Of a stretch of 37,557 nt of DNA, positions 2,674-31,430 are shown one piece after another. The translations under genes were made by a program, and so were the position numbers. Under the pieces are notes generated by a model. That model made no database searches, was not told the origin of the DNA, and was given only the letters and a program-made list of their open reading frames with translations. This stretch comes from Bacteriovoracia bacterium (GTDB lineage Bacteria; Bdellovibrionota; Bacteriovoracia; Bacteriovoracales; Bacteriovoracaceae): contig JAUIBX010000009.1 in NCBI GenBank assembly GCA_030427595.1, positions 1 to 37,557 on the forward strand, read 5' to 3'. How positions within the stretch are numbered: the first letter of the stretch is position 1; each line of letters starts with the position of its first letter.

Positions 2674-3618
2674 TTAAGAACCTAAGTTAAAACAAGAAAC
2701 CATGCGAGAGGATCTTTCTTGGAGATCTGGTGACTCACTTTTACAGCGCTCTGTCGCTTGAGGACACCTTTCATGAAAAGCACATCCTTGTGGAGGATTA
2801 AGAGGAGAGGGGGGCTCTCCTGCTAAAGGATTATGCTCTTTTTCTGGTTCGAAAATATTTGGGGAAGCCTCAAGAAGTGCTCTTGTATAGGGGTGTTGAG
2901 GATTTTCAAAAATCTGTTCTCTCCTACCATACTCCACAACTTTACCAAGGTACATAACAAGGACTGTGTCAGCGATGTGTTTAACCACATTGAGATCGTG
3001 GCTAATAAAGAGATAAGTCAAATCCAGTTGATCTTGAAGCTCAACAAGAAGGTTTAAGACTTGAGCTTGGATACTGACATCAAGAGCAGAGATGGGTTCA
3101 TCACAAATGAGGATTTTAGGGTTAAGGATTAAAGCGCGGGCAATGCCGAGGCGTTGGCGTTGACCACCAGAAAACATATGGGGATAGCGATTGGCCATCT
3201 CAGGGCGTAGACCAACTTTTTCCATGAGCTGGCAGGCCCTTTCATAGGCTTCTTTTTGGGAGACTTTTTGATTGATAAGAAGAGGTTCAGCAATAATTTT
3301 CCAGGCCGTCTTTCTGGGGTTAAGAGAATTGTAGGGGTCTTGGAAAATCATTTGAATAGTCTGGTAAAGACTCTTCCCTTTGAGTGCTTTTGAATCCACA
3401 CCCTCAAAAAAGACCTGACCAGAAGTTTCCTCTTCTAGACCCATGAGGGTTTTGGCCAGGGTGGATTTACCACAACCACTCTCTCCCACAATGGCCAGTG
3501 TCTGTTTCTTTTTAACTTCAAAGCTCACACCATCGAGGGCCTTTACCATCGCCTTACTATTGAGGAGCCCTTTTAGGGCATAATGTTTTTTGAGTTCTTG
3601 TACTTTTAAGAGGCTCAT
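2674..3618 (-). CDS. dppF: Dipeptide ABC transporter ATP-binding protein DppF
   Basis: One of two ATPases that drive peptide import at the inner membrane. Visible in order: Walker [10 protein letters not shown] (residues 45-53), Q-loop IFQDPYNSLNP, signature FSGGQRQR (149-156), Walker B ILICDEP (169-175), switch His in FISHD, and the C-terminal oligopeptide/dipeptide (oligo_HPY) extension with the cysteine cluster CAFHERCPQATERC. The start chosen is the ATG at 3618, which overlaps the dppD stop in an ATGA and has AGGAGG at about 3622-3628; an upstream in-frame ATG at 3645 would add nine residues inside dppD and has no such site. At 314 residues it matches the family. Last gene of the dppABCDF cluster. 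Substrate specificity cannot be read from an ATPase; the dpp assignment rests on dppA and gene order. Confidence 0.93.
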   Translation of the reverse strand: MSLLKVQELKKHYALKGLLNSKAMVKALDGVSFEVKKKQTLAIVGESGCGKSTLAKTLMGLEEETSGQVFFEGVDSKALKGKSLYQTIQMIFQDPYNSLNPRKTAWKIIAEPLLINQKVSQKEAYERACQLMEKVGLRPEMANRYPHMFSGGQRQRLGIARALILNPKILICDEPISALDVSIQAQVLNLLVELQDQLDLTYLFISHDLNVVKHIADTVLVMYLGKVVEYGRREQIFENPQHPYTRALLEASPNIFEPEKEHNPLAGEPPSPLNPPQGCAFHERCPQATERCKSESPDLQERSSRMVSCFNLGS

Positions 3619-4601
3619 AGGACCTCCTCTTGCGGATGGTGACAACGAAGAAGGTGAGTCGATGCTTCATCCCTGAGCTCAGTCAGGATAGGCTGATGCT
3701 GACATTTCTCACTGGCAAAATCACAGCGAGGATGAAACTGACAACCAAGGGGGCGAGCGTTGAGGGCCGGCACAATACCTGGAATAGAAGTTAGGGGTGC
3801 TCGAAAAGCTGTCTCCTTGGCACCGGGAAGGGAGCGCAACAGGCCTCTAGTATAAGGGTGCTGTGGTCTTTCAATGAGCTCTCTTGTTGGTGCCGATTCA
3901 ACGATTTCTCCTGCATACATCACTTGAATATTGTCTGAGACTTTGGCCACAACTCCAAGGTCATGCGTCACAAAGATCATCGCCATATTATAGGCGTCTT
4001 GTAGTTCTTTAAGGAGGCGAAGGATTTGGTCTTGAATGGTGACATCAAGAGCAGTGGTTGGCTCATCGGCAATGAGAAGTTTTGGTTTGCAGGCAATGGC
4101 CATCGCAATCATCACTCTTTGGCTCATGCCACCGGAAAGCTCATGGGCATAGGAACTCAAGCGACTCTCTGGTGCTGGTATACCTACTTGTTTAAGAAGT
4201 TCAAGGCAGCGCACCTCTCTATCAACTTTTGTGAGTTGAGGCTCATGAATTTTAAGAGTTTCTTCAAGTTGGTAGCCCACGGTGAAGCTGGGGTTGAGAG
4301 CACTCATCGGATCTTGGAAAATCATCGCCATTTCCTTACCGCGAATCTTTTGCCACTGCTTTTCTCTTAGTTTTAAAAGGTCGAGGCCCTCAAAGGTGAC
4401 CTCACTTGCATGAACCTGCCCATTGTCAGAAAGAAGACCCATGATCGCGAGGTTGGTGATAGACTTGCCACAACCACTTTCACCTACAACTCCAAGAGTC
4501 TGACCTCTTTCAAGATCAAAGGAAATGCCACGAACTGCTTCAAGAATCCCCTGGCGGCTTTGAAAGTGAATGGAGAGATCACGAACTTTGAGGAGGCTCA
4601 T
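3615..4601 (-). CDS. dppD: Dipeptide ABC transporter ATP-binding protein DppD
   Basis: Partner ATPase of DppF in the importer. Walker A GESGCGKS (residues 40-47), Q-loop [11 protein letters not shown], signature LSGGMSQR (155-162), Walker B LLIADEP (175-181) and switch His213 are all present, so it should be a competent ATPase. The C-terminus has the oligo_HPY extension, with CQFHPRC typical of DppD/OppD. Length, 328 residues, is normal. Its start overlaps the dppC stop by four bases (ATGA), and its stop overlaps the dppF start in the same way, a sign of translational coupling and matched expression of the two ATPases and the permease. Confidence 0.93.
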
Positions 4602-5491
4602 TTCTTTAACCTTGGATCAAGGGTATCTCTTAGGCCATCACCTAGGAGGTTAAAGCCAAGAACAACAAAGAGAATGCAAAGACCCGGTAAGGTGACAAGC
4701 CATGGGTCACTAGAAATAAACGCGCGGGCATCGGCCAGCATGATACCCCATTCAGGGGTGGGGGCCTGGGCTCCGAGACCTAGGAAACCTAAGGCGGCTA
4801 CATTGAGGATGCCATCACTGAAGCCGAGAGAAATTTGAACAATGAGGGGCGCCATGCAGTTGGGGAGAATTTCACTAAACATGATCCTAAAAGAAGAAGC
4901 CCCAAAGGTTTTTGAGGCCATCACATATTGTTTCTTTCGTTCTTCCATCGCCGAAGCACGCACAATTCTAATAAAGCTTGGGCAGGCAACGATGGCCACA
5001 GCAACAATTGCATTAAAGAGTCCAGGGCCCATGACGGAGACCACAACGATGGCCAAAAGGATAGAAGGAAAGGCCATGAGGATGTCGACAAATCTCATGA
5101 TGAGCCAGTCGACTTTTCCACCAAAGTAGCCTGCCATTAGACCAAGAAGTGTGCCCACACTTGCTGAGAGGAAGACCACGAGAAAGCCGACGCCCATTGA
5201 GATCCTTGCCCCATAAATAAGACGGCTTAAAAGGTCTCTACCCACATCATCTGTACCGAAGAAGAAACTGGCATTGCCTCCCTCATAAAAAGATGGTGGT
5301 AAGCGCAGAGCATTCTCTTGCAATTCTGAAGGGGAGTGGGGAGAAAGGAGTGGGGCAAAGACTGCAAGAAAAACAAAGAAGAGAATAAAGGCCAAACCAA
5401 TAAGAGCCCCCTTATTGGCACTAAAGCCCACCCAAAAATCTCGTAAGGGATGCTCATAATCTGATTTGTTTTCTTCTATATTACTTTGCAT
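4598..5491 (-). CDS. dppC: Dipeptide ABC transporter permease DppC
   Basis: Inner-membrane permease subunit. The N-terminus (LRDFWVGFSANKGALIGLAF) is the usual OppC/DppC N-terminal segment leading into the first membrane helix. A periplasmic loop contains the typical FFGTDDVGRDLLSRLIYGAR, followed by about five further hydrophobic helices. The EAA-type coupling loop reads YVMASKTFGASSFRIMFSEILPN. I chose the ATG at 5491 (297 residues) with GGAG three bases upstream, a short spacing; a TTG at 5500 in the same frame would add three residues and cannot be excluded. The 54-base gap to dppB holds a tandem heptamer array, so dppC is the only gene of the set whose translation is not directly coupled to the gene before it. 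Confidence 0.92.
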   Translation of the reverse strand: MQSNIEENKSDYEHPLRDFWVGFSANKGALIGLAFILFFVFLAVFAPLLSPHSPSELQENALRLPPSFYEGGNASFFFGTDDVGRDLLSRLIYGARISMGVGFLVVFLSASVGTLLGLMAGYFGGKVDWLIMRFVDILMAFPSILLAIVVVSVMGPGLFNAIVAVAIVACPSFIRIVRASAMEERKKQYVMASKTFGASSFRIMFSEILPNCMAPLIVQISLGFSDGILNVAALGFLGLGAQAPTPEWGIMLADARAFISSDPWLVTLPGLCILFVVLGFNLLGDGLRDTLDPRLKK

Positions 5492-5506
5492 AAACTCCAA
5501 TTTAAA

Positions 5507-5537
5507 ACCTGTAACCTGCCACCTGTAACCCGTAACC
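5507..5537. repeat. Tandem heptamer array between dppB and dppC
   Basis: Four consecutive seven-base units plus a three-base start of a fifth on the plus strand: ACCTGTA at 5507, ACCTGCC at 5514, ACCTGTA at 5521, ACCCGTA at 5528, then ACC. The seven-base period is strict. The array lies in the 54-base gap of the dpp operon. Related arrays are at 10197-10231 and 14742-14805. Confidence 0.75.
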
Positions 5538-5545
5538 TTCTTTTA

Positions 5546-6562
5546 TCATCTCATCTTCGGATTAATAACCGCATACACAAAATCAACAGCTAAGTTGATG
5601 AGAACAACCATGGTTGCAATAAAGAGGACGCCTCCTTGGATGACGGGATAGTCTCTTGCATTGATACTCGCCACCAGCCACTTACCAATGCCTGGCCATG
5701 AAAAAATTGTTTCAGTCAAAATGGCACCCGTAATAATAGAGCCAAACATCAAACCTAAAACAGTAATGATGGGAATGAGGGCATTTCTTAGGCCATGAAT
5801 TAAAACAATCTTCTTGTAGGGAAGGCCTTTTGCCTTCGCCGTCCTTATATAATCCTCACCCATGACTTCAAGCATGCTTGAGCGAGTCATGCGTGCTAGC
5901 ACTGCTAGGGGAATGGTCCCCATAGCGATAGAGGGTAAGATCAAATGGGAGATGGCACTGATAAAAGGGGCAAGGCCTTCTTCTGCCAGCACTTCTGGAC
6001 TTAAAGTATCAACAAGGTAAAAGCCGGTGATAGTGGGAACATCATAGAGAACATCAATTCTGCCACTTACAGGTGTCAGACCTAAACCAACGCTAAAGAT
6101 AATAATAAGAATAAGACCCCACCAAAAAATGGGCATGGAATAGCCCACTAGGCTTCCTCCCATTAGAAAGTAATCAAAGAAGCTATTTCTTTTAAGGGCG
6201 GCCAGGATGCCCAAAGGAATACCAATAAGGGCAGCAAAGAAAAGGGCACATAGTCCTAGTTCGAGTGTGGCAGGGAAGCGACCAAAGAATTCTTCTGTGA
6301 CCTTTCTCTTTGAGACAAGAGAGCGTCCCAAGTCCCCACGAAAGGAGTTAATTAAAAAGCTTTGGTACTGACTTAAGATAGGTTTATCTAGACCAAGTTC
6401 TCTTTTCATTTCTTGATAAACTTTTGGGTCTGCTCCTCTTTCTCCGAGCATGAGCATGACGGGATCACCGGGAACTAAGCGAATGACAAAAAAGGCTAAA
6501 AGACTGACACCCAACAATGTGGGAACGAGGTCGATCAGTCTTTTGAGTAGAAAATTGAGCAT
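5546..6562 (-). CDS. dppB: Dipeptide ABC transporter permease DppB
   Basis: Inner-membrane permease subunit, 338 residues, the normal length. It begins with the family-typical MLNFLLKRLIDLVPTLLGVS first helix and the RLVPGDPV motif, followed by a periplasmic region and five more membrane helices. The coupling loop YIRTAKAKGLPYKKIVLIHG and the end VDFVYAVINPKMR are characteristic of DppB/OppB. The start ATG is one base after the dppA stop (TAA T ATG), indicating coupling to the binding-protein gene. Substrate assignment to dipeptides follows dppA; oligopeptides or nickel are alternatives in this permease family but less likely given the binding protein. Confidence 0.93.
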   Translation of the reverse strand: MLNFLLKRLIDLVPTLLGVSLLAFFVIRLVPGDPVMLMLGERGADPKVYQEMKRELGLDKPILSQYQSFLINSFRGDLGRSLVSKRKVTEEFFGRFPATLELGLCALFFAALIGIPLGILAALKRNSFFDYFLMGGSLVGYSMPIFWWGLILIIIFSVGLGLTPVSGRIDVLYDVPTITGFYLVDTLSPEVLAEEGLAPFISAISHLILPSIAMGTIPLAVLARMTRSSMLEVMGEDYIRTAKAKGLPYKKIVLIHGLRNALIPIITVLGLMFGSIITGAILTETIFSWPGIGKWLVASINARDYPVIQGGVLFIATMVVLINLAVDFVYAVINPKMR

Positions 6563-6563
6563 A

Positions 6564-8183
6564 TTATTTGAGTTCTATTCTCTTAAAAATGTCCCCACCA
6601 AGAGGATCAATAATGTAGCCTTTGACATTCTTAGACATGGCCCTAAAAACCTTTGAGTGGGCGAGGGTTACCCATGGGGCTTGCTCTTTAAAGATTTCTT
6701 GAGCACGACGGTAAAGAGGGGCACGCTTTTCTTTATCTGTGACTAGTTTCGCCTTACTAATGAGTTTTTCAAATTCATCGTGACACCAGCGCGCGACATT
6801 GGAGCCTGCTTCCACGCCACCACAACCGAGAAGGACATTGAGGAAGTTATCTGGATCACCGTTATCACCGGTCCAGCCTAGTTGAATGAGTTGATGCTCT
6901 CCTTGGCGTGCCTTCTTGAGATAGGTTGGCCAATCATAGCTAATAAGCTTTGCTTTGATACCAACCTTGGCCAGATCAGCTTGCATCATTTCACCCATTT
7001 TTTTCCCATTAGGATTGTAGGGTCTTGTTACCGGTAGGGTCCAAATTTCTGTTTCAAAGCCTTGAGAGAGACCAGCTTCTTTAAGGAGAGCTTTCGCCTT
7101 TTCAAGGTTGTGTTCATAATCTGAGACCTTGTCATTATATGACCAAATTGTTGGAGGAAGTGGGTTCTTCGCTTTAATGGCCTGACCAAGATAAATGGCT
7201 TCAATATAAGAGTCTCTATTGAGGGCAAGGTTGATCGCTTTACGAACGCGGACATCATCAAAGGGCTTTCTTTGAGTGTTCATGGCAAGGTAGCCCACGT
7301 TGAGACCGGAGCCACTCAGAAGTTTGAGGTTATCTTCTTTTTCAATCGCCGCAATATCGGCTGGGCTCGGTTCAATGATGAGGTGGCATTCACCTGCCTT
7401 GAGTTTTTGAAAACGAACGGATGGATCTGGGGTGATGGCAAAAATAAGGTTGTCGACCTTAGGGGCTTCTCCCCAGTATTTCTTATTTCTTTTGTAGCGA
7501 ATCAAGCTATCTTTGACATACTTCTTAAACATAAAAGGACCAGTACCTACTGGGTAATGATCAATCTTTTCCTTTTCACCTTTTGCAGCTAAGAAGTCAG
7601 CATACTCTTTAGAGAGAATGGACATGAAACTCATGGCCAAGTTGGCAAGAAAAGGCGCTTCAGGTCTGTTGAGAATGATACTGACTTGGTAGTTATTATC
7701 CTTAACGACATTTTTAATAATTGAGCCCATTTCCATACCGTTGAAGTACTCATAAGAGCCCCCTCCCACTTTATGGTAGGGGTGATCCTTTTGGCGCATG
7801 CGATTGATAGAAAAGAGGACATCATCGGCATTAAAGGGGCGACTTGGTTTGAAGTCTCCAAAGGAATGAAAACTAACATTCTTTCTCAAAATAAAAGTGT
7901 AGGTGAGGCGGTCATCGCTCACTGAAAAACTTTGGGCAAGGGCCGGCACAACTTCTGTTGTTCCATATTTAAAATCCACAAGTTTTTCATAGATGGTATG
8001 AGCAGCGGCATTATTTGAAGTGCCGTCAGTTGTGATTTGAGGATTAAAAGCTGTCGGTGAACCTTCAGAACAGTAGACGAAATTCTTGGAATCACTCTTC
8101 TTACCGAGGCAGCCAGAAATCAAAGAACTAAGAAGGAGAATACCCACCAATACTGTGGAGCGTGAACGAGGAGTATGACGCAT
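6564..8183 (-). CDS. dppA: Dipeptide-binding lipoprotein DppA
   Basis: Periplasmic substrate-binding protein (SBP family 5). It has a lipoprotein signal: basic start, hydrophobic stretch to residue 24 and lipobox ISGC with Cys25 as the lipidated residue. That differs from the freely soluble E. coli DppA. Strong DppA-type sequence follows: VYCSEGSPTAFNPQ near the mature N-terminus, FKYGTTEVVPALAQSF, GTGPFMFKKY, and WTGDNGDPDNF at 437-447, where the E. coli protein holds the aspartate that binds the peptide amino group. The C-terminal VKGYIIDPLGG also matches. The ATG is preceded by AGGG and six A residues. It heads the canonical dppABCDF order and lies 63 bases after the MFS gene, so it could be read from sfsA or from a promoter in that gap. 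Dipeptide (or heme) uptake suits a peptide-feeding organism. Confidence 0.93.
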   Translation of the reverse strand: MRHTPRSRSTVLVGILLLSSLISGCLGKKSDSKNFVYCSEGSPTAFNPQITTDGTSNNAAAHTIYEKLVDFKYGTTEVVPALAQSFSVSDDRLTYTFILRKNVSFHSFGDFKPSRPFNADDVLFSINRMRQKDHPYHKVGGGSYEYFNGMEMGSIIKNVVKDNNYQVSIILNRPEAPFLANLAMSFMSILSKEYADFLAAKGEKEKIDHYPVGTGPFMFKKYVKDSLIRYKRNKKYWGEAPKVDNLIFAITPDPSVRFQKLKAGECHLIIEPSPADIAAIEKEDNLKLLSGSGLNVGYLAMNTQRKPFDDVRVRKAINLALNRDSYIEAIYLGQAIKAKNPLPPTIWSYNDKVSDYEHNLEKAKALLKEAGLSQGFETEIWTLPVTRPYNPNGKKMGEMMQADLAKVGIKAKLISYDWPTYLKKARQGEHQLIQLGWTGDNGDPDNFLNVLLGCGGVEAGSNVARWCHDEFEKLISKAKLVTDKEKRAPLYRRAQEIFKEQAPWVTLAHSKVFRAMSKNVKGYIIDPLGGDIFKRIELK

Positions 8184-24635: not shown

Positions 24636-24872
24636 TTAAGCTTCAAATAGGTGACGGTACTTTCTTAGAAACTTAGAAAGAGAACCAACTTTATCGAGGG
24701 TTCTAATCGCCTTAGTAGAGAGTCTTAGTTTAATTGTTTGACCAGTTTCTGGGTCATATACTCTCTTCGTTTGAAGGTTAGGCTTTTGAGTCATTTTAGT
24801 TTTATTGTTCGCGTGAGAAACTTTGTTTCCTACGAGTCTTCTTTTGCCAGTTAAATCACATGAGCGGGACAT
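24636..24872 (-). CDS. rpmB: Ribosomal protein L28
   Basis: 78 residues with the L28 signature: MSRSCDLTGKRRLVGNKVSHANNKTKM, QKPNLQTKRVYDPETGQTIKLRLSTKAIRTLDKVG. A component of the 50S subunit. AAGGA precedes the ATG by about eight bases. It has its own promoter and terminator. rpmG, its usual neighbour, is 9 kb away. Confidence 0.96.
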   Translation of the reverse strand: MSRSCDLTGKRRLVGNKVSHANNKTKMTQKPNLQTKRVYDPETGQTIKLRLSTKAIRTLDKVGSLSKFLRKYRHLFEA

Positions 24873-26445: not shown

Positions 26446-27399
26446 ATGCGTTTGCGCCAAATCCTTTTATTAGCCTCTGCTATACTCTTTGTTATTTCAG
26501 CAGGGTTGTATTTCTTTGCCCCTGATTTGAAAGAAGACTTAATGGAGGCCAAGCGCACTAAGGTCATCTACAAAAAGCTTAAGACTCTTGAAGGTCGGGA
26601 AGAGGCCATCAGAGAAAATCGCAGAAATATCCCACCCAAAAAGTTATTCAACTACGATTCCAAGAAGACTATGGGTAGTGAACCTAAGGTTGTAATTGTT
26701 AAGGCCCTTAAAGCGGTCAGGACACGCTTGGTGAAAGATTGTGATGACGTTCTTGAGCGTCTTAATGAGTATCCTGATCTGATCGATTATCAAAGCTCCC
26801 TCTATCAAAATAGAGGAAAAGTGGAAGACTTCCTAAATCATTCTCTGGGTAATGCCTTTGATATTATTCGATTATTGAAACCAAGTCTTGGCACCTTAAA
26901 AGAGCAGATCATGCAAATGGATCGAGGTAGCCTTAAACTACAAGAATTTGAAAAAATCTCAAATGAGTATGATTCTCTCATTGCTTCTTGCGGTGTTAAT
27001 GATGGCCTTGGCCCCTTGGTTTTAACTCTAACTGAGGTCATAAAGGAGATAAATCCTGCCTATACCCCATTTCTGGTTAAGGCCTCCACAAATATGGCGA
27101 CGGCCTACTTCGAAATAGAAACCTATGAAGCCCTTTTCCTAGGAGCTGGTCTTTTAAGGAATATGAACTCACATGGTATTCTCTCTCAAAGTGAAGCCTA
27201 TGACCTTGAAGTCTTGTCGGGGCGATTACGTAATACCTATGACAATTTTAAGTTTGAATGGAAGAAGGCCAAGACCATTGAAGAAAAGCAAGATGTGTTA
27301 GTCTACTTTAATGAAGAAGCGATTGTCCTGGCAGAACTCTTTAAAGAATTTACCTATAAAATTCAAACTGGCTACAGCGCTTATTCCATACAAAGGTAA
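26446..27399 (+). CDS. Uncharacterised membrane-anchored helical protein (paralogue 2)
   Basis: 317 residues. A clear hydrophobic N-terminal helix (about 5-25, QILLLASAILFVISAGLYFF) suggests an uncleaved inner-membrane anchor with the rest in the periplasm. The remainder is helical, with exactly two cysteines, Cys99 and Cys182, that correspond to the pair in the preceding protein. It starts 17 bases after that gene, without an obvious SD, so it is probably cotranscribed and may depend on the upstream gene for translation. No family recognised. Its 3' end overlaps the convergent radical SAM gene by 19 bases. Confidence 0.65.
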   Translation: MRLRQILLLASAILFVISAGLYFFAPDLKEDLMEAKRTKVIYKKLKTLEGREEAIRENRRNIPPKKLFNYDSKKTMGSEPKVVIVKALKAVRTRLVKDCDDVLERLNEYPDLIDYQSSLYQNRGKVEDFLNHSLGNAFDIIRLLKPSLGTLKEQIMQMDRGSLKLQEFEKISNEYDSLIASCGVNDGLGPLVLTLTEVIKEINPAYTPFLVKASTNMATAYFEIETYEALFLGAGLLRNMNSHGILSQSEAYDLEVLSGRLRNTYDNFKFEWKKAKTIEEKQDVLVYFNEEAIVLAELFKEFTYKIQTGYSAYSIQR

Positions 27400-28391
27400 A
27401 CTTGCTCTTTTGTAAGTCCCACCTGAAAAGCCAAATCTTTGATTTTTCCCAATATCCATAAACGAAATGGACGAGGATAGCGAACCTTACCATCAAAGCT
27501 AGAGCTAAACTCAGCCGCTAGAAGCTCTGATTGAGGGTAGTTCTTTTTCACTTGATGAAAGACCTGTGACGTGAAACGCACGACTCCCATTGAGACATAT
27601 TCAATTTTGGGGAGGTCAAGTTCACTCTTAAGAGTTTGAAAAAGCTCACTGTAAGTCTTTATAAAGTTATCCTCATGGATAATGGGATCAAGGTGAATGG
27701 CAACTGGGTGACCAGCCTCTTGTAGGGATCTTATAACCTTAACGCGATGTGACAGGGCCGGGGTTTTCAGGTCTGTTGCTCTAATCCGTTTTTCAGGAGA
27801 GAGAGAAAAACTTGTAATAATATTAGGGAGAGGTTTTTGCTCTAACAAACCTTTGATATTGGCCGACTTTGTTCTGAGCTCTAACATTGCCCTTGGCTCT
27901 TTTGAAAAGAGATCAAAGTAAAAAGGGATTTCTCCAGAGAGGTGACTGAGGGCCAGAGAGTCGCTGAATTCCCCCGCGTGAAACCAAATACGCTTACTTG
28001 GGTCTTTGTTGAGAGACTCTTTCCAAGTCCTCTCAATCTCCTCACCGATTTCTTGGTGATTGAGAAAGAGAACAATATCGGGAGAGTTAAAGTAGCCTTG
28101 AAGGTAGCAGTACTCACATTCATAAATGCAGTTATAGGCATGAATGAAGTAGTAGTGGGGTTCTCCTGCTAGGCCATAGGCATCCGGCGCTTCTTTTAGG
28201 AGAGTACCTTTCTTCTTGCCAAGGAAGAGCTGGAGATTATCTCTTTTTTGCAGATAAGGCTTTTTGACCCGGCCAAAGACATCTTCAATAGCATCAATCT
28301 CTGTAATTGGAACTTGTGAGAAACGCTCGCGAATATTTTGAAACTGTGGGTAAGAAGTCGAATCTTTTTCGACAAAGATGCGGCTAAACAT
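27381..28391 (-). CDS. Spore photoproduct lyase-like radical SAM protein
   Basis: 336 residues from the ATG at 28391, five bases after GAGGG; an adjacent ATG at 28394 is possible. The radical SAM cluster motif is CxxxCxxC: Cys88, Cys92 and Cys95 in YNCIYECEYCYLQGY, the spacing and context seen in spore photoproduct lyase (SplB). Other SplB-like segments are IWFHAGEFSDSLAL, MLELRTKSANIKGLL, SFSLSPEKR, VAIHLDPIIH and FRLWILGKIK. SplB repairs spore photoproduct in DNA, but homologues occur in non-sporulating bacteria, where the substrate is less clear. The gene overlaps the upstream nucleosidase-like gene by eight bases, so the two are coupled. Confidence 0.82.
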   Translation of the reverse strand: MFSRIFVEKDSTSYPQFQNIRERFSQVPITEIDAIEDVFGRVKKPYLQKRDNLQLFLGKKKGTLLKEAPDAYGLAGEPHYYFIHAYNCIYECEYCYLQGYFNSPDIVLFLNHQEIGEEIERTWKESLNKDPSKRIWFHAGEFSDSLALSHLSGEIPFYFDLFSKEPRAMLELRTKSANIKGLLEQKPLPNIITSFSLSPEKRIRATDLKTPALSHRVKVIRSLQEAGHPVAIHLDPIIHEDNFIKTYSELFQTLKSELDLPKIEYVSMGVVRFTSQVFHQVKKNYPQSELLAAEFSSSFDGKVRYPRPFRLWILGKIKDLAFQVGLTKEQVYLCME

Positions 28392-29526
28392 CATTGCCCT
28401 CTTTAATGATCTCTTCTCCGCGCATGAGGGTTCTAAACTTATTAAAGTCAAAGTTCTCTAGAGCGGTAATGATTTTGTTTATCTGAGTTTCTTTTTCAAG
28501 AGCGGTGCTTAAATGAAGAACCTCGCTTTCATGACCCTGATCAAAGCGCACAGAGACACCGGCCTGTTGCATATCAGCTGTCACCTCATTGAGGGCCTCT
28601 TTTAACTTCCCTTCTAGTGGATTGAGAAGATTGGTTAAACTTTCGAGAAATAACTTTGTTTTATCTTTTGGTCTTAAATCCTTTTCAATCAACTCATTAA
28701 AGTGGGTCTCCTCAAGAATATTTTCCTTACTCTTTCCCTTAAGGTTTAAAGCTTTGAGAAGTTGCCTTAGCCGTCTTTCTTGAGAGACCGTAATGTGGAG
28801 GTGGCTTAACTCTGGCCATAACTCATCATTTGTATCAGAACCTTTAAGTGAGGTTTGTTTTTGAAGAAAGGCACGCAAGAGCAGGTCACTCCAACGGTCG
28901 GTCTCTTCTTTCACCCGAGCACAAATATCTCCATCGGCGAAGTCACTCACAACTTTTAAACTTGAAAAGGCGCACTTGAGTTGAGCGCACACAAATCCTG
29001 TCGCCCAAAGCTCCCGGTCAACGAGGGGGGCAAAGTGACTAAAGTGTTCCGCTTGTTTGGCATCAAGAATCCGAGCATTAGTCGAAACGATATCTGCAAT
29101 AGGGAAGTTATCCTCCTCTTCTATTGAGGGGGTGCAAGTGAAACTCTTAAACTCCATTTCAGAAACCTCGAGTCCCTTTTGACCGTAGCAAGTAGCGATA
29201 CGAAGAATTTGCTCTTTTTCTAGTTTAAGTGGGTGGGCCTCAAGTCCAGCGCAGACGCCAAGGTTGATGACTTGAAGGTCACGGTCTGGGAAGCGTTCCC
29301 TAAGTAGGACAATGGCCGCAGTTAACTTTACAAGGACCTGGTCGCGTCCTTCTCCCGTGATGAGGAGGCTCATCATCTCATTTTGAGGGCCAGTGAGTTG
29401 GTATAGGTCGCCTTCACTATTGAGGGGCTTTGACTGGAATTCATGAAGAAATGCCTTGGCCTCGCCTCGGTGAGCGAAACTTAAAAGAGTATGGTGCTTA
29501 CTTTGGTTGGCCTCTGTCATAGACAT
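28384..29526 (-). CDS. Nucleoside phosphorylase/MTAN-like protein with C-terminal helical extension
   Basis: 380 residues; ATG with AGAGGA seven bases upstream. The first about 220 residues resemble the MTA/SAH nucleosidase (MTAN) and futalosine hydrolase family: SFAHRGEAKAFL with Glu22 where MTAN has its N-terminal catalytic Glu, VINLGVCAGL (87-96), VDRELWATGFVC with Glu172 at the nucleoside-binding position, and KVVSDFADGD with Asp195 at the catalytic Asp. The match is distant but the key acids are present. The C-terminal 160 residues are helical, highly charged and unassigned. MTAN-type enzymes cleave adenine from methylthioadenosine, S-adenosylhomocysteine or 5'-deoxyadenosine. The last is a radical SAM by-product, which gives the overlap with the SplB-like gene a functional sense. 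Confidence 0.65.
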   Translation of the reverse strand: MSMTEANQSKHHTLLSFAHRGEAKAFLHEFQSKPLNSEGDLYQLTGPQNEMMSLLITGEGRDQVLVKLTAAIVLLRERFPDRDLQVINLGVCAGLEAHPLKLEKEQILRIATCYGQKGLEVSEMEFKSFTCTPSIEEEDNFPIADIVSTNARILDAKQAEHFSHFAPLVDRELWATGFVCAQLKCAFSSLKVVSDFADGDICARVKEETDRWSDLLLRAFLQKQTSLKGSDTNDELWPELSHLHITVSQERRLRQLLKALNLKGKSKENILEETHFNELIEKDLRPKDKTKLFLESLTNLLNPLEGKLKEALNEVTADMQQAGVSVRFDQGHESEVLHLSTALEKETQINKIITALENFDFNKFRTLMRGEEIIKEGNDV

Positions 29527-29661: not shown

Positions 29662-30609
29662 ATGACACATTTGCTAAATGAGTGGAGTTCGTTACCTTTT
29701 GCCTTTGGGGGAGCTGCTGTTAGTGGGGAAGGTGGAGGTTACGGTTTCGGTAAAGTTTCTGATCCTCAAGGTTTATTAGATCGAGCTCTCGATCTGGGGA
29801 TCACTCTCTATGACACTGCTCCGATTTATGGTTTTGGCCAAAGTGAAGTTGAGTTTTCCCAGTTTTTTAAAAGGCATAAGGCAAAGAGAGAAAAGTTGCG
29901 AGTTGTATCCAAGTCTGGTGTGCACTGGCATAGCAGCAAGAGGGTCGATATGACTAATGATCCCAAGGTGACAAGCAAGATGCTTGAAGAGTCTCTTAAA
30001 CGCCTCAAGACAGAATACATCGATCTCTATATGATTCACTGGCCTGATGCCAATGTGGATATTCGTTATCCTCTAGAAGTTCTGGCCAAGGCCAAAGAGC
30101 AAGGGAAGATTTTAGAGGTTGGCCTTTGTAATACCCATATTGATGACCTCAAAGCCGCAGGGGAAGTTGTTCCAGTTAAAGTAGTTCAGTCACAGCACAA
30201 TATCTATGATCAACCACCACAGGACGTGATTGATTATATTTTAGAGAAGAACCTTTCTTTCATGGCATGGGGTCCCTTTGATAAAGGTATTCTTACTGGA
30301 CGAGTGACCAAAAAAAGGGAACAGGCCAAGGACTATGATGAAGAAGACTGTCGTAAGAGTGCCCCTTGGTGGAATCAAAAGGATATTATTTCTAAGTGTG
30401 AAAAGCTTGGTTTCTATTGTGAGTTTGCAAAAGAAAAGGAACTTGAGCTTCCTGAGCTCGCCCTTTCCTATGTCTTAAGTCCAAACTGGTCACACGTCGC
30501 GCTCTTAGGGGCAAAGACAATTGCTGACCTAGAAAAAGCTGTGCATTCAAGGTTGGTAACTCTAAGTTCTGATGAAAGAGAAGAGATTCAAAAGCAGTGC
30601 CGACCGTAA
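29662..30609 (+). CDS. Aldo/keto reductase
   Basis: 315 residues, cytoplasmic NAD(P)H-dependent oxidoreductase of TIM-barrel fold. The catalytic tetrad is visible: Asp51 and Tyr56 in TLYDTAPIYGFGQSE, Lys84 in VVSKSG, His126 in DLYMIHWPD. Later family segments include EVGLCNTHIDDL, VVQSQHNIYD, FMAWGPFDKGILTG and ALSYVLSPNWSHVALLGAK, the cofactor-binding end. It belongs to the broad YghZ/general-stress group of AKRs; the substrate cannot be read. AGGGA at 29652-29656 fits the ATG. The glycosyltransferase gene overlaps its 3' end by 13 bases, so the two are cotranscribed. Confidence 0.92.
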   Translation: MTHLLNEWSSLPFAFGGAAVSGEGGGYGFGKVSDPQGLLDRALDLGITLYDTAPIYGFGQSEVEFSQFFKRHKAKREKLRVVSKSGVHWHSSKRVDMTNDPKVTSKMLEESLKRLKTEYIDLYMIHWPDANVDIRYPLEVLAKAKEQGKILEVGLCNTHIDDLKAAGEVVPVKVVQSQHNIYDQPPQDVIDYILEKNLSFMAWGPFDKGILTGRVTKKREQAKDYDEEDCRKSAPWWNQKDIISKCEKLGFYCEFAKEKELELPELALSYVLSPNWSHVALLGAKTIADLEKAVHSRLVTLSSDEREEIQKQCRP

Positions 30610-31430
30610 GTGTTCTTATCCCAACATATAATAGGGCTCATACCATCGGCCGAGCAGTTGAGTCTGTCCTTGGCCAAACTCATCGTGAGCTTGAGTGTAT
30701 TGTTATTGATGATGCTTCTTCTGATGAAACCATCGAGCTTCTTAAAAAATATGATGATCCCCGTGTGAAAATTATCCAGCATCGTGAAAACCGTGGCGTC
30801 TCTCAAGCGCGCAATACAGGCTTTCGCCAGTCGCATGGTAAATGGATCGCCCTTCTTGATAGTGATGACGAGTGGTTGCCTCATCGGTTGGAGTCTCAAC
30901 TTAAGCTTGCTAAGGAAAGACCAGGGCTTCCCCTCATTCACGGTGAAGAATTATGGGTAAGAAGAGGCAAGAGGGTTAACCCCAAGAAGATTCATCAAAA
31001 GAGTGGGGGAAGAATCTTTAAGCGCTGCCTGCACCTCTGTCTTATTTCTCCTTCAGCAACTCTTATGAAGAGAAGCCTCTATGAAGAGATGAAAGGCTTT
31101 AGAGAAGACTATCCGGTATGTGAGGATTATGAGCTGTGGCTTAGAGTCACGGCCCGTTATGAAGTGGGTTTTGTAGAGGAGCCCATTATTACCAAGTATG
31201 GTGGTCATGACGATCAGCTTTCGGCCAAGTATAAGGCCATGGATTTTTGGCGTGTAAAGGCCATGGATGAAATCTTTCGCAATGAAAGTTTTCCCCTTGA
31301 TGCTTCACAGAAAAGAGAGCTTAAAGAAGTTCTTATTAAAAAGTGCACTATTCTCAAAGATGGTTACCTTAAGCACGGTAATTTAGAAAATTTGCCCTTT
31401 ATTGAAGAACTACTGGAGCGCTATCAATAG
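30597..31430 (+). CDS. Family 2 glycosyltransferase
   Basis: 277 residues, GT-A fold, cytoplasmic with no membrane helices. The start is a GTG inside the end of the aldo/keto reductase gene. Seen: VSVLIPTYNRAHTIGRAVESVLGQT at the N-terminus (nucleotide-sugar site), CIVIDDASSDET, NRGVSQARNTGF, and the DxD-type metal site LLDSDDEWLP (about 86-95). The acceptor-side motif FREDYPVCEDYELWLRV (about 168-184) contains the ED catalytic-base region of the family. It transfers a sugar to an unknown acceptor, perhaps in cell-surface polysaccharide. No other surface-glycan genes are in view. The 3' end overlaps the convergent saccharopine dehydrogenase gene by 32 bases. Confidence 0.92.
   Translation: MPTVSVLIPTYNRAHTIGRAVESVLGQTHRELECIVIDDASSDETIELLKKYDDPRVKIIQHRENRGVSQARNTGFRQSHGKWIALLDSDDEWLPHRLESQLKLAKERPGLPLIHGEELWVRRGKRVNPKKIHQKSGGRIFKRCLHLCLISPSATLMKRSLYEEMKGFREDYPVCEDYELWLRVTARYEVGFVEEPIITKYGGHDDQLSAKYKAMDFWRVKAMDEIFRNESFPLDASQKRELKEVLIKKCTILKDGYLKHGNLENLPFIEELLERYQ

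Follow-up and report, generated by a model that had tools for sequence, protein, structure and literature searches.

The window analysed here, a 37,557-nucleotide stretch of the genome of a Bacteriovoracia bacterium (contig JAUIBX010000009.1 of assembly GCA_030427595.1, positions 1 to 37,557), carries on its minus strand a pair of overlapping genes: P0002 (28384..29526, 380 aa), which encodes an MTAN-fold nucleosidase domain followed by a C-terminal extension, and directly downstream of it P0001 (27381..28391, 336 aa), which encodes a radical S-adenosylmethionine (SAM) enzyme resembling spore photoproduct lyase (SPL). The two open reading frames (ORFs) share eight bases (ATGTTTAG, 28384..28391, minus strand), so that the coordinates, the gene order with the nucleosidase-like gene first and the overlap given in the initial annotation of this DNA were all borne out. 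P0001 could also start at an ATG one codon earlier or at the TTG chosen by the ORF tool (overlaps of 11 and 68 bases respectively); the eight-base overlap, with an ATG, GTG or TTG start, is found again in most relatives, including most loci of the first of three score tiers described below, and this start is preferred because of that conservation. The overlap suggests translational coupling, and the survey described below confirmed that the pair is real and recurrent.

The nucleosidase-like protein and the radical SAM enzyme

By sequence P0002 is a weak match to its family: it matches the PRK05634 nucleosidase at 2e-6 with 27.7 bits (cut-off 129), PF01048 is not reported at E-values up to 1, and the score stays below that of the curated MTAN family. 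The fold is clear from the AlphaFold model (mean pLDDT 91.5, 36-row alignment), since nearly all of the best 50 PDB matches listed by Foldseek are MTAN or futalosine hydrolase structures, among them 2h8g (E 2.9e-13) and CT263 (TM 0.85 by target); the nucleoside-phosphorylase/MTAN fold proposed for the N-terminal domain is thus upheld. The nucleosidase domain spans residues 11–226 (28849..29496, minus strand), which align to MTAN chains in the PDB. Its conserved residues are E22, D170-R171-E172 and S194-D195, the last two groups aligning with the VEMEA and SD.A motifs of MTAN, and E22, E172 and D195 are likely the equivalents of MTAN E12, E174 and D197; all three are retained in 60 of 65 relatives. 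The extension that follows, of about 150 residues (roughly 230–377; 28411..28815 on the minus strand for residues ~238–372), is modelled as a helical bundle and then a strand-strand-helix unit, mostly helical with two strands; it has an invariant P303 and a nearly invariant E333 and is the candidate docking domain for the radical SAM enzyme.

P0001 belongs to the Pfam SPL family (7.5e-22, 78.1 bits for a gathering cut-off of 27), with scores below the equivalog cut-offs of TIGR04070 (90 of 400 bits) and TIGR03886 (81 of 438 bits). Its sequence aligns with the SPL chains 4fhg and relatives, and its AlphaFold model (mean pLDDT 87, 24-row alignment) has as best structural match the SPL structure 4fhf (TM 0.83 by query), the next match outside SPL reaching a TM of 0.45. 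In an alignment of 135 family members (75 of tier i, 44 of tier ii and 16 of tier iii), the cluster-binding motif CxxxCxxC (C88/C92/C95; 28107..28130, minus strand) is invariant. The position of the hydrogen-donor cysteine of SPL, Cys140, is taken in P0001 by E141 (27969..27971, minus strand); this column is Glu in 75/75 tier-i and 44/44 tier-ii proteins and Gln in 16/16 tier-iii proteins, and reads S or A in the solved SPL mutant structures. The protein ends in Cys-Met-Glu (C334-M335-E336; 27384..27392, minus strand), a tripeptide present in nearly all 135 members, with C334 kept in 134 of them across the three tiers. From the exchange of the hydrogen donor for Glu and the conserved C-terminal Cys-Met-Glu, P0001 appears not to be a true SPL, and C334, as a candidate radical or hydrogen-donor residue, might at a guess replace Cys140. 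The view of P0001 as a repair enzyme accordingly holds as far as its likeness to SPL goes; the SPL hydrogen donor is absent, so repair is one possibility only.

Conservation of the pair and variation of the partner

When P0001 was scanned against GTDB genomes, 45 loci were recovered, most of them in Bacteriovoracales and others in Calditrichota and Spirochaetota, and nearly all of those with enough upstream sequence had a P0002 homologue directly upstream, mostly with the same eight-base overlap. Profiles of the radical SAM enzyme and of P0002 were then run over 291 Bdellovibrionota genomes. The former matched 157 genomes in three score tiers (i, ii and iii), and of the 79 genomes in tier i, 78 have a same-strand partner that begins no more than 60 bases from the radical SAM gene on its upstream side, the exception (G289) having its partner 829 bases away. 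The recurrence asked about in the initial annotation is therefore answered in the affirmative, and chance adjacency was dropped, as linkage in 78/79 genomes goes far beyond chance. At E 1e-20 or better, SPL-like radical SAM enzymes occur in 157 of 291 Bdellovibrionota and 129 of 247 Spirochaetota genomes.

The extension, rather than the nucleosidase, is the constant part of this association. In four Spirochaetota loci (L039, L042, L043 and L117) the radical SAM gene is preceded by a gene for only 131–143 aa, corresponding to the extension alone (E ~1e-25 to 1e-29). Three of these genomes were searched for a detached full-length P0002 homologue and none was found; the extension was recovered in each, and two also gave weak matches to other nucleosidases. 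Their neighbours on the radical SAM tree, L038, L040 and L119, have degenerate nucleosidase domains. On this tree, where 123 radical SAM proteins were labelled by partner type (L115 and L121, whose partners are cut or extension-like, being labelled as nucleosidase by default), seven changes of partner are needed (minimum 3; shuffles average 50) and the extension-only group is nested inside the nucleosidase group. The pattern suggests that the nucleosidase domain decayed and was lost in Spirochaetota while the extension and the radical SAM enzyme were retained. Additionally, stand-alone nucleosidases homologous to the domain of P0002 (L156–L160) lie at the same locus beside an aldo/keto reductase gene in relatives without a linked extension and radical SAM gene, so the domain can act alone. 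Because some lineages retain the other two parts with the nucleosidase decayed or missing, and because it occurs by itself in relatives, the nucleosidase is best regarded, on this comparative ground, as a swappable accessory module and not as an obligate half of the chemistry. The notion of a fixed pair thus survives for the linkage and fails for the nucleosidase as its constant half. Around the extension-only genes, a protein of ~715 aa, by eye presumably a metallo-beta-lactamase/cyclic-nucleotide-binding protein, precedes the pair in L039 and L043 (about 3400–7600) and in the upstream part of L042, and in L039 and L043 the pair is followed by what we take, again by eye, to be a UbiX-like flavoprotein.

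Sister clades of SPL-like enzymes have partners of a second type. In 15 of the 16 tier-ii Bdellovibrionota loci fetched, an upstream overlapping ORF of 206–311 aa was found, and 8 of these 15 partners individually match the full partner profile at E<0.1. At the C-terminus these partners are related to the extension of P0002 (hhalign probability 86, P 5e-6; a second profile comparison gave P 2.5e-5), whereas at the N-terminus they show no relationship to the nucleosidase (P 0.63). One of them, in L071, has a clear ParB N-terminal domain (9e-11); a ParB identity for the others was not confirmed by Pfam. Second-type partners were also found at 11 Spirochaetota loci, of which the weakest (L150, L144 and L129) are marginal, and a Leptospira-like group of radical SAM enzymes has no partner. 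The tier-iii enzymes (L087–L090 and L171–L182) carry a conserved N-terminal helical region of ~110 residues with the pattern FTxQExRxxxExxxDxxxW, which has weak similarity (probability 34, P 4e-4) to the central part of the tier-ii partner and is possibly a fused partner domain.

A natural fusion was found in Fusobacterium vincentii (NZ_CP084075.1, locus L183, 2110–3981), where nucleosidase, shortened extension and radical SAM enzyme are joined in one ORF of 623 aa. Residues 5–167 match the profile of the nucleosidase domain (4e-12), residues 299–622 that of the radical SAM enzyme (4e-68), and the ~80 residues between them can be aligned collinearly with the helical portion of the extension, although the profile match is weak (E 0.13). 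Neither the terminal Cys-Met-Glu nor a Glu in the Cys140 column is present in the fusion. It is known from this single record, no second fusion having been found in the plasmid collection; the ORF is not annotated there, and the record, although called a plasmid, is 2.1 Mb long and may be a chromosome. Taken together with the extension-only genes and the occurrence of the C-terminal part on unrelated N-termini, the fusion makes a docking role of the extension, as first suggested by the initial annotation, well supported on comparative grounds. More tentatively, and with clearly less than even odds, the whole clade may be pictured as SPL-like enzymes in which a C-terminal cysteine has taken over from a lost SPL hydrogen donor, served by a plug-in partner in which one conserved docking domain carries varied nucleotide-handling modules (a ParB fold, an MTAN nucleosidase or none), the lineage of the window having a built-in destroyer of the inhibitory by-product.

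Upstream of the pair lie two further genes, on the plus strand, that are not part of it, a divergent aldo/keto reductase gene (29662..30609), conserved within Bacteriovoracaceae, and beside it a family 2 glycosyltransferase gene (30597..31430), likewise conserved. Throughout Bacteriovoracaceae this block is found next to the nucleosidase, even in the absence of the radical SAM gene; in the Spirochaetota locus L134 the SPL-like radical SAM gene has immediately upstream of it a gene for a related glycosyltransferase (40% identity). As the two neighbours are also conserved in the family, background synteny accounts for some of the linkage. As a full explanation, synteny across the family was dropped, since the pair outlives the block and is fused elsewhere: in Calditrichota and other Bdellovibrionota it is kept without these neighbours, and the pair stands without them in seven loci with full upstream sequence (L016, L018, L020, L022, L028, L038 and L044). 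On the other side, a convergent plus-strand gene (26446–27399) shares 19 bases with the radical SAM gene at their 3′ ends (27381–27399), and a 78-aa ORF at 24636–24872 presumably encodes ribosomal protein bL28, judged by eye. Scans for promoters and terminators gave matches at chance level only. Control by LexA through the Bdellovibrio box was dropped, as the window has no TTAC-N3-GTAA site, and so was a phage origin, as no match to P0002 was found in phage records.

A putatively docked nucleosidase and its possible roles

In vitro, the 5′-deoxyadenosine released by radical SAM enzymes often limits them, and its removal in cells is commonly ascribed to general nucleosidases. Inhibition of these enzymes by 5′-deoxyadenosine and removal of the latter by a nucleosidase have been described (PMC6079011, PMC8102628). 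The host genome has SahH and, in its PNP-family content as read from family searches, MtnP, an AMP nucleosidase-like protein and what we take by eye to be a purine nucleoside phosphorylase split over two contigs; no other PF01048 member or MTAN-type hydrolase was found by these searches. A housekeeping role as S-adenosylhomocysteine (SAH) nucleosidase was dropped because SahH is present, and since SahH handles SAH, MtnP handles methylthioadenosine (MTA) and another MTAN-type hydrolase was not found, the removal of 5′-deoxyadenosine stands out as a task still to be filled. More distantly related domains adjoin apt and metK (L166) or mtnP, mtnA and a class II aldolase/mtnB-like gene (L165), neighbours of the type that make up the gene set of MTA and 5′-deoxyadenosine salvage (PMC6079011). 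P0002 would thus be an adenine-releasing nucleosidase for SAM-derived nucleosides, with 5′-deoxyadenosine as its most sensible target.

The reading favoured here, to which a probability of just under one half (about 0.48) is given, is that the translationally coupled genes would yield a two-protein complex in which P0002 binds the SPL-like radical SAM enzyme through its C-terminal extension, while the N-terminal MTAN-fold module would cleave the released 5′-deoxyadenosine to adenine and 5-deoxyribose. Such cleavage would relieve product inhibition and make the cleavage of SAM irreversible. The substrate of the radical SAM enzyme may be DNA or another nucleic acid, and its chemistry would differ from that of SPL because the hydrogen donor Cys140 is replaced by Glu. 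The reading builds on what the models and comparisons show, namely the two folds, the catalytic residues, the conserved linkage, the natural fusion and the separable extension; the physical complex and the substrates of both proteins are inferred. Several points weigh against this reading, plausible as the scavenger mechanism is. The nucleosidase domain is dispensable, being degenerate in three of the lineages described above and absent from four; the stand-alone homologues near the aldo/keto reductase, which have no linked radical SAM gene, point to a job of its own for the domain there; MtnP of the same genome could cleave 5′-deoxyadenosine; and true SPL regenerates SAM, so that little free 5′-deoxyadenosine is made.

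Instead of clearing a free by-product, the docked nucleosidase might process the product itself, removing adenine after the radical SAM enzyme has attached a 5′-deoxyadenosyl group to its substrate. Known radical SAM/nucleosidase partnerships, MqnE-MqnB of menaquinone and HpnH-HpnG of hopanoid synthesis, work by such adduct processing; a replaced hydrogen-donor cysteine would suit addition chemistry, and for the stand-alone nucleosidase L156 the highest-scoring model is HpnG, with matches to futalosine hydrolase models as well, none of these scores reaching the cut-off. Nevertheless, this is unlikely here, as clades with the same radical SAM core residues have no adjoining nucleosidase, so that adenine removal is not generally needed, and as the fold match of the radical SAM enzyme is to SPL, far above MqnE. 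Moreover, the MqnA/MqnD family (PF02621) has no match in the host genome, which control genomes do have, and HpnH (TIGR03470) scores no higher than 62.6 bits there against a cut-off of 225, a cut-off that the matches in all 14 control genomes miss as well; roles in the futalosine or hopanoid pathways were dropped on this account. An equally improbable option is a sensory or regulatory module, the N-terminal domain binding an adenine nucleoside (CTP or DNA in the ParB type) and thereby gating or targeting the radical SAM enzyme, with hydrolysis secondary or lost. It would account for an N-terminus that varies (MTAN-like, ParB in L071, degenerate or absent) while the extension persists, and both ParB-fold and MTAN-fold domains bind nucleotides or nucleosides, but retention of the catalytic residues in 60 of 65 nucleosidase domains is more than a pure sensor would require.

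A slightly smaller chance still is given to a housekeeping nucleosidase for general disposal of SAM by-products, whose linkage to the radical SAM gene would reflect slow rearrangement in this bacterial order. The equally conserved aldo/keto reductase and glycosyltransferase neighbours and the stand-alone nucleosidases at the same locus are what such a gene would be expected to show; against it stand the persistence of the pair in the seven loci without these neighbours, the Fusobacterium fusion and the extension that stays with the radical SAM enzyme when alone.

If the docked-scavenger reading is true, a dedicated nucleosidase would be a simple natural solution to by-product inhibition, in one case within the same polypeptide, and the pair would offer a test of how tightly by-product removal limits radical SAM enzymes. 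The pair also marks widespread SPL-like enzymes in non-spore-formers, of which the aligned members lack the hydrogen-donor cysteine and so are probably not genuine spore photoproduct lyases; it also gives a partner with which substrates can be sought by pull-down.

Comparison with known systems

The initial annotation knew of no described pair of this kind. For the SPL family this stands, as no description of an SPL–nucleosidase or SPL–ParB pair was found in the literature covered, from which subscription journals are mostly missing, and the pair looks new; in its general form the statement does not hold, radical SAM/nucleosidase partnerships of other families being known. MqnE-MqnB and HpnH-HpnG likewise combine a radical SAM enzyme with an MTAN-fold nucleosidase or phosphorylase but belong to other radical SAM families, with MqnA/D absent and HpnH below cut-off in this genome. 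SplB itself (PF20903, TIGR04070) shares with P0001 the fold (TM ~0.8 to 4fhf), the CxxxCxxC motif, the Tyr residues around the cluster and the Pfam score, and differs in its hydrogen-donor Cys140, where P0001 has Glu, in the extra conserved C-terminal Cys-Met-Glu and the dedicated partner protein of P0001, and by the 90 bits of the latter against an equivalog cut-off of 400. MTAN (Pfs; TIGR01704, PF01048) shares the fold and catalytic residues with P0002, which scores below the curated value, has a C-terminal extension and adjoins a radical SAM gene. The ParB-type SPL partner has a C-terminal domain related to that of P0002, whose N-terminus is MTAN-like and not ParB. Known SplB-like genes in SOS-type operons are accompanied by ImuB-C or DUF4130, for which DNA repair was proposed (PMC3765255), and control of splB by LexA has been predicted for alpha- and beta-Proteobacteria (PMC3323433). 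These systems resemble the present one in joining an SPL-like radical SAM enzyme to a dedicated neighbour; here, however, there is no Pfam match to those partner domains, and ImuB-C is mainly beta whereas the extension of P0002 is mainly helical.

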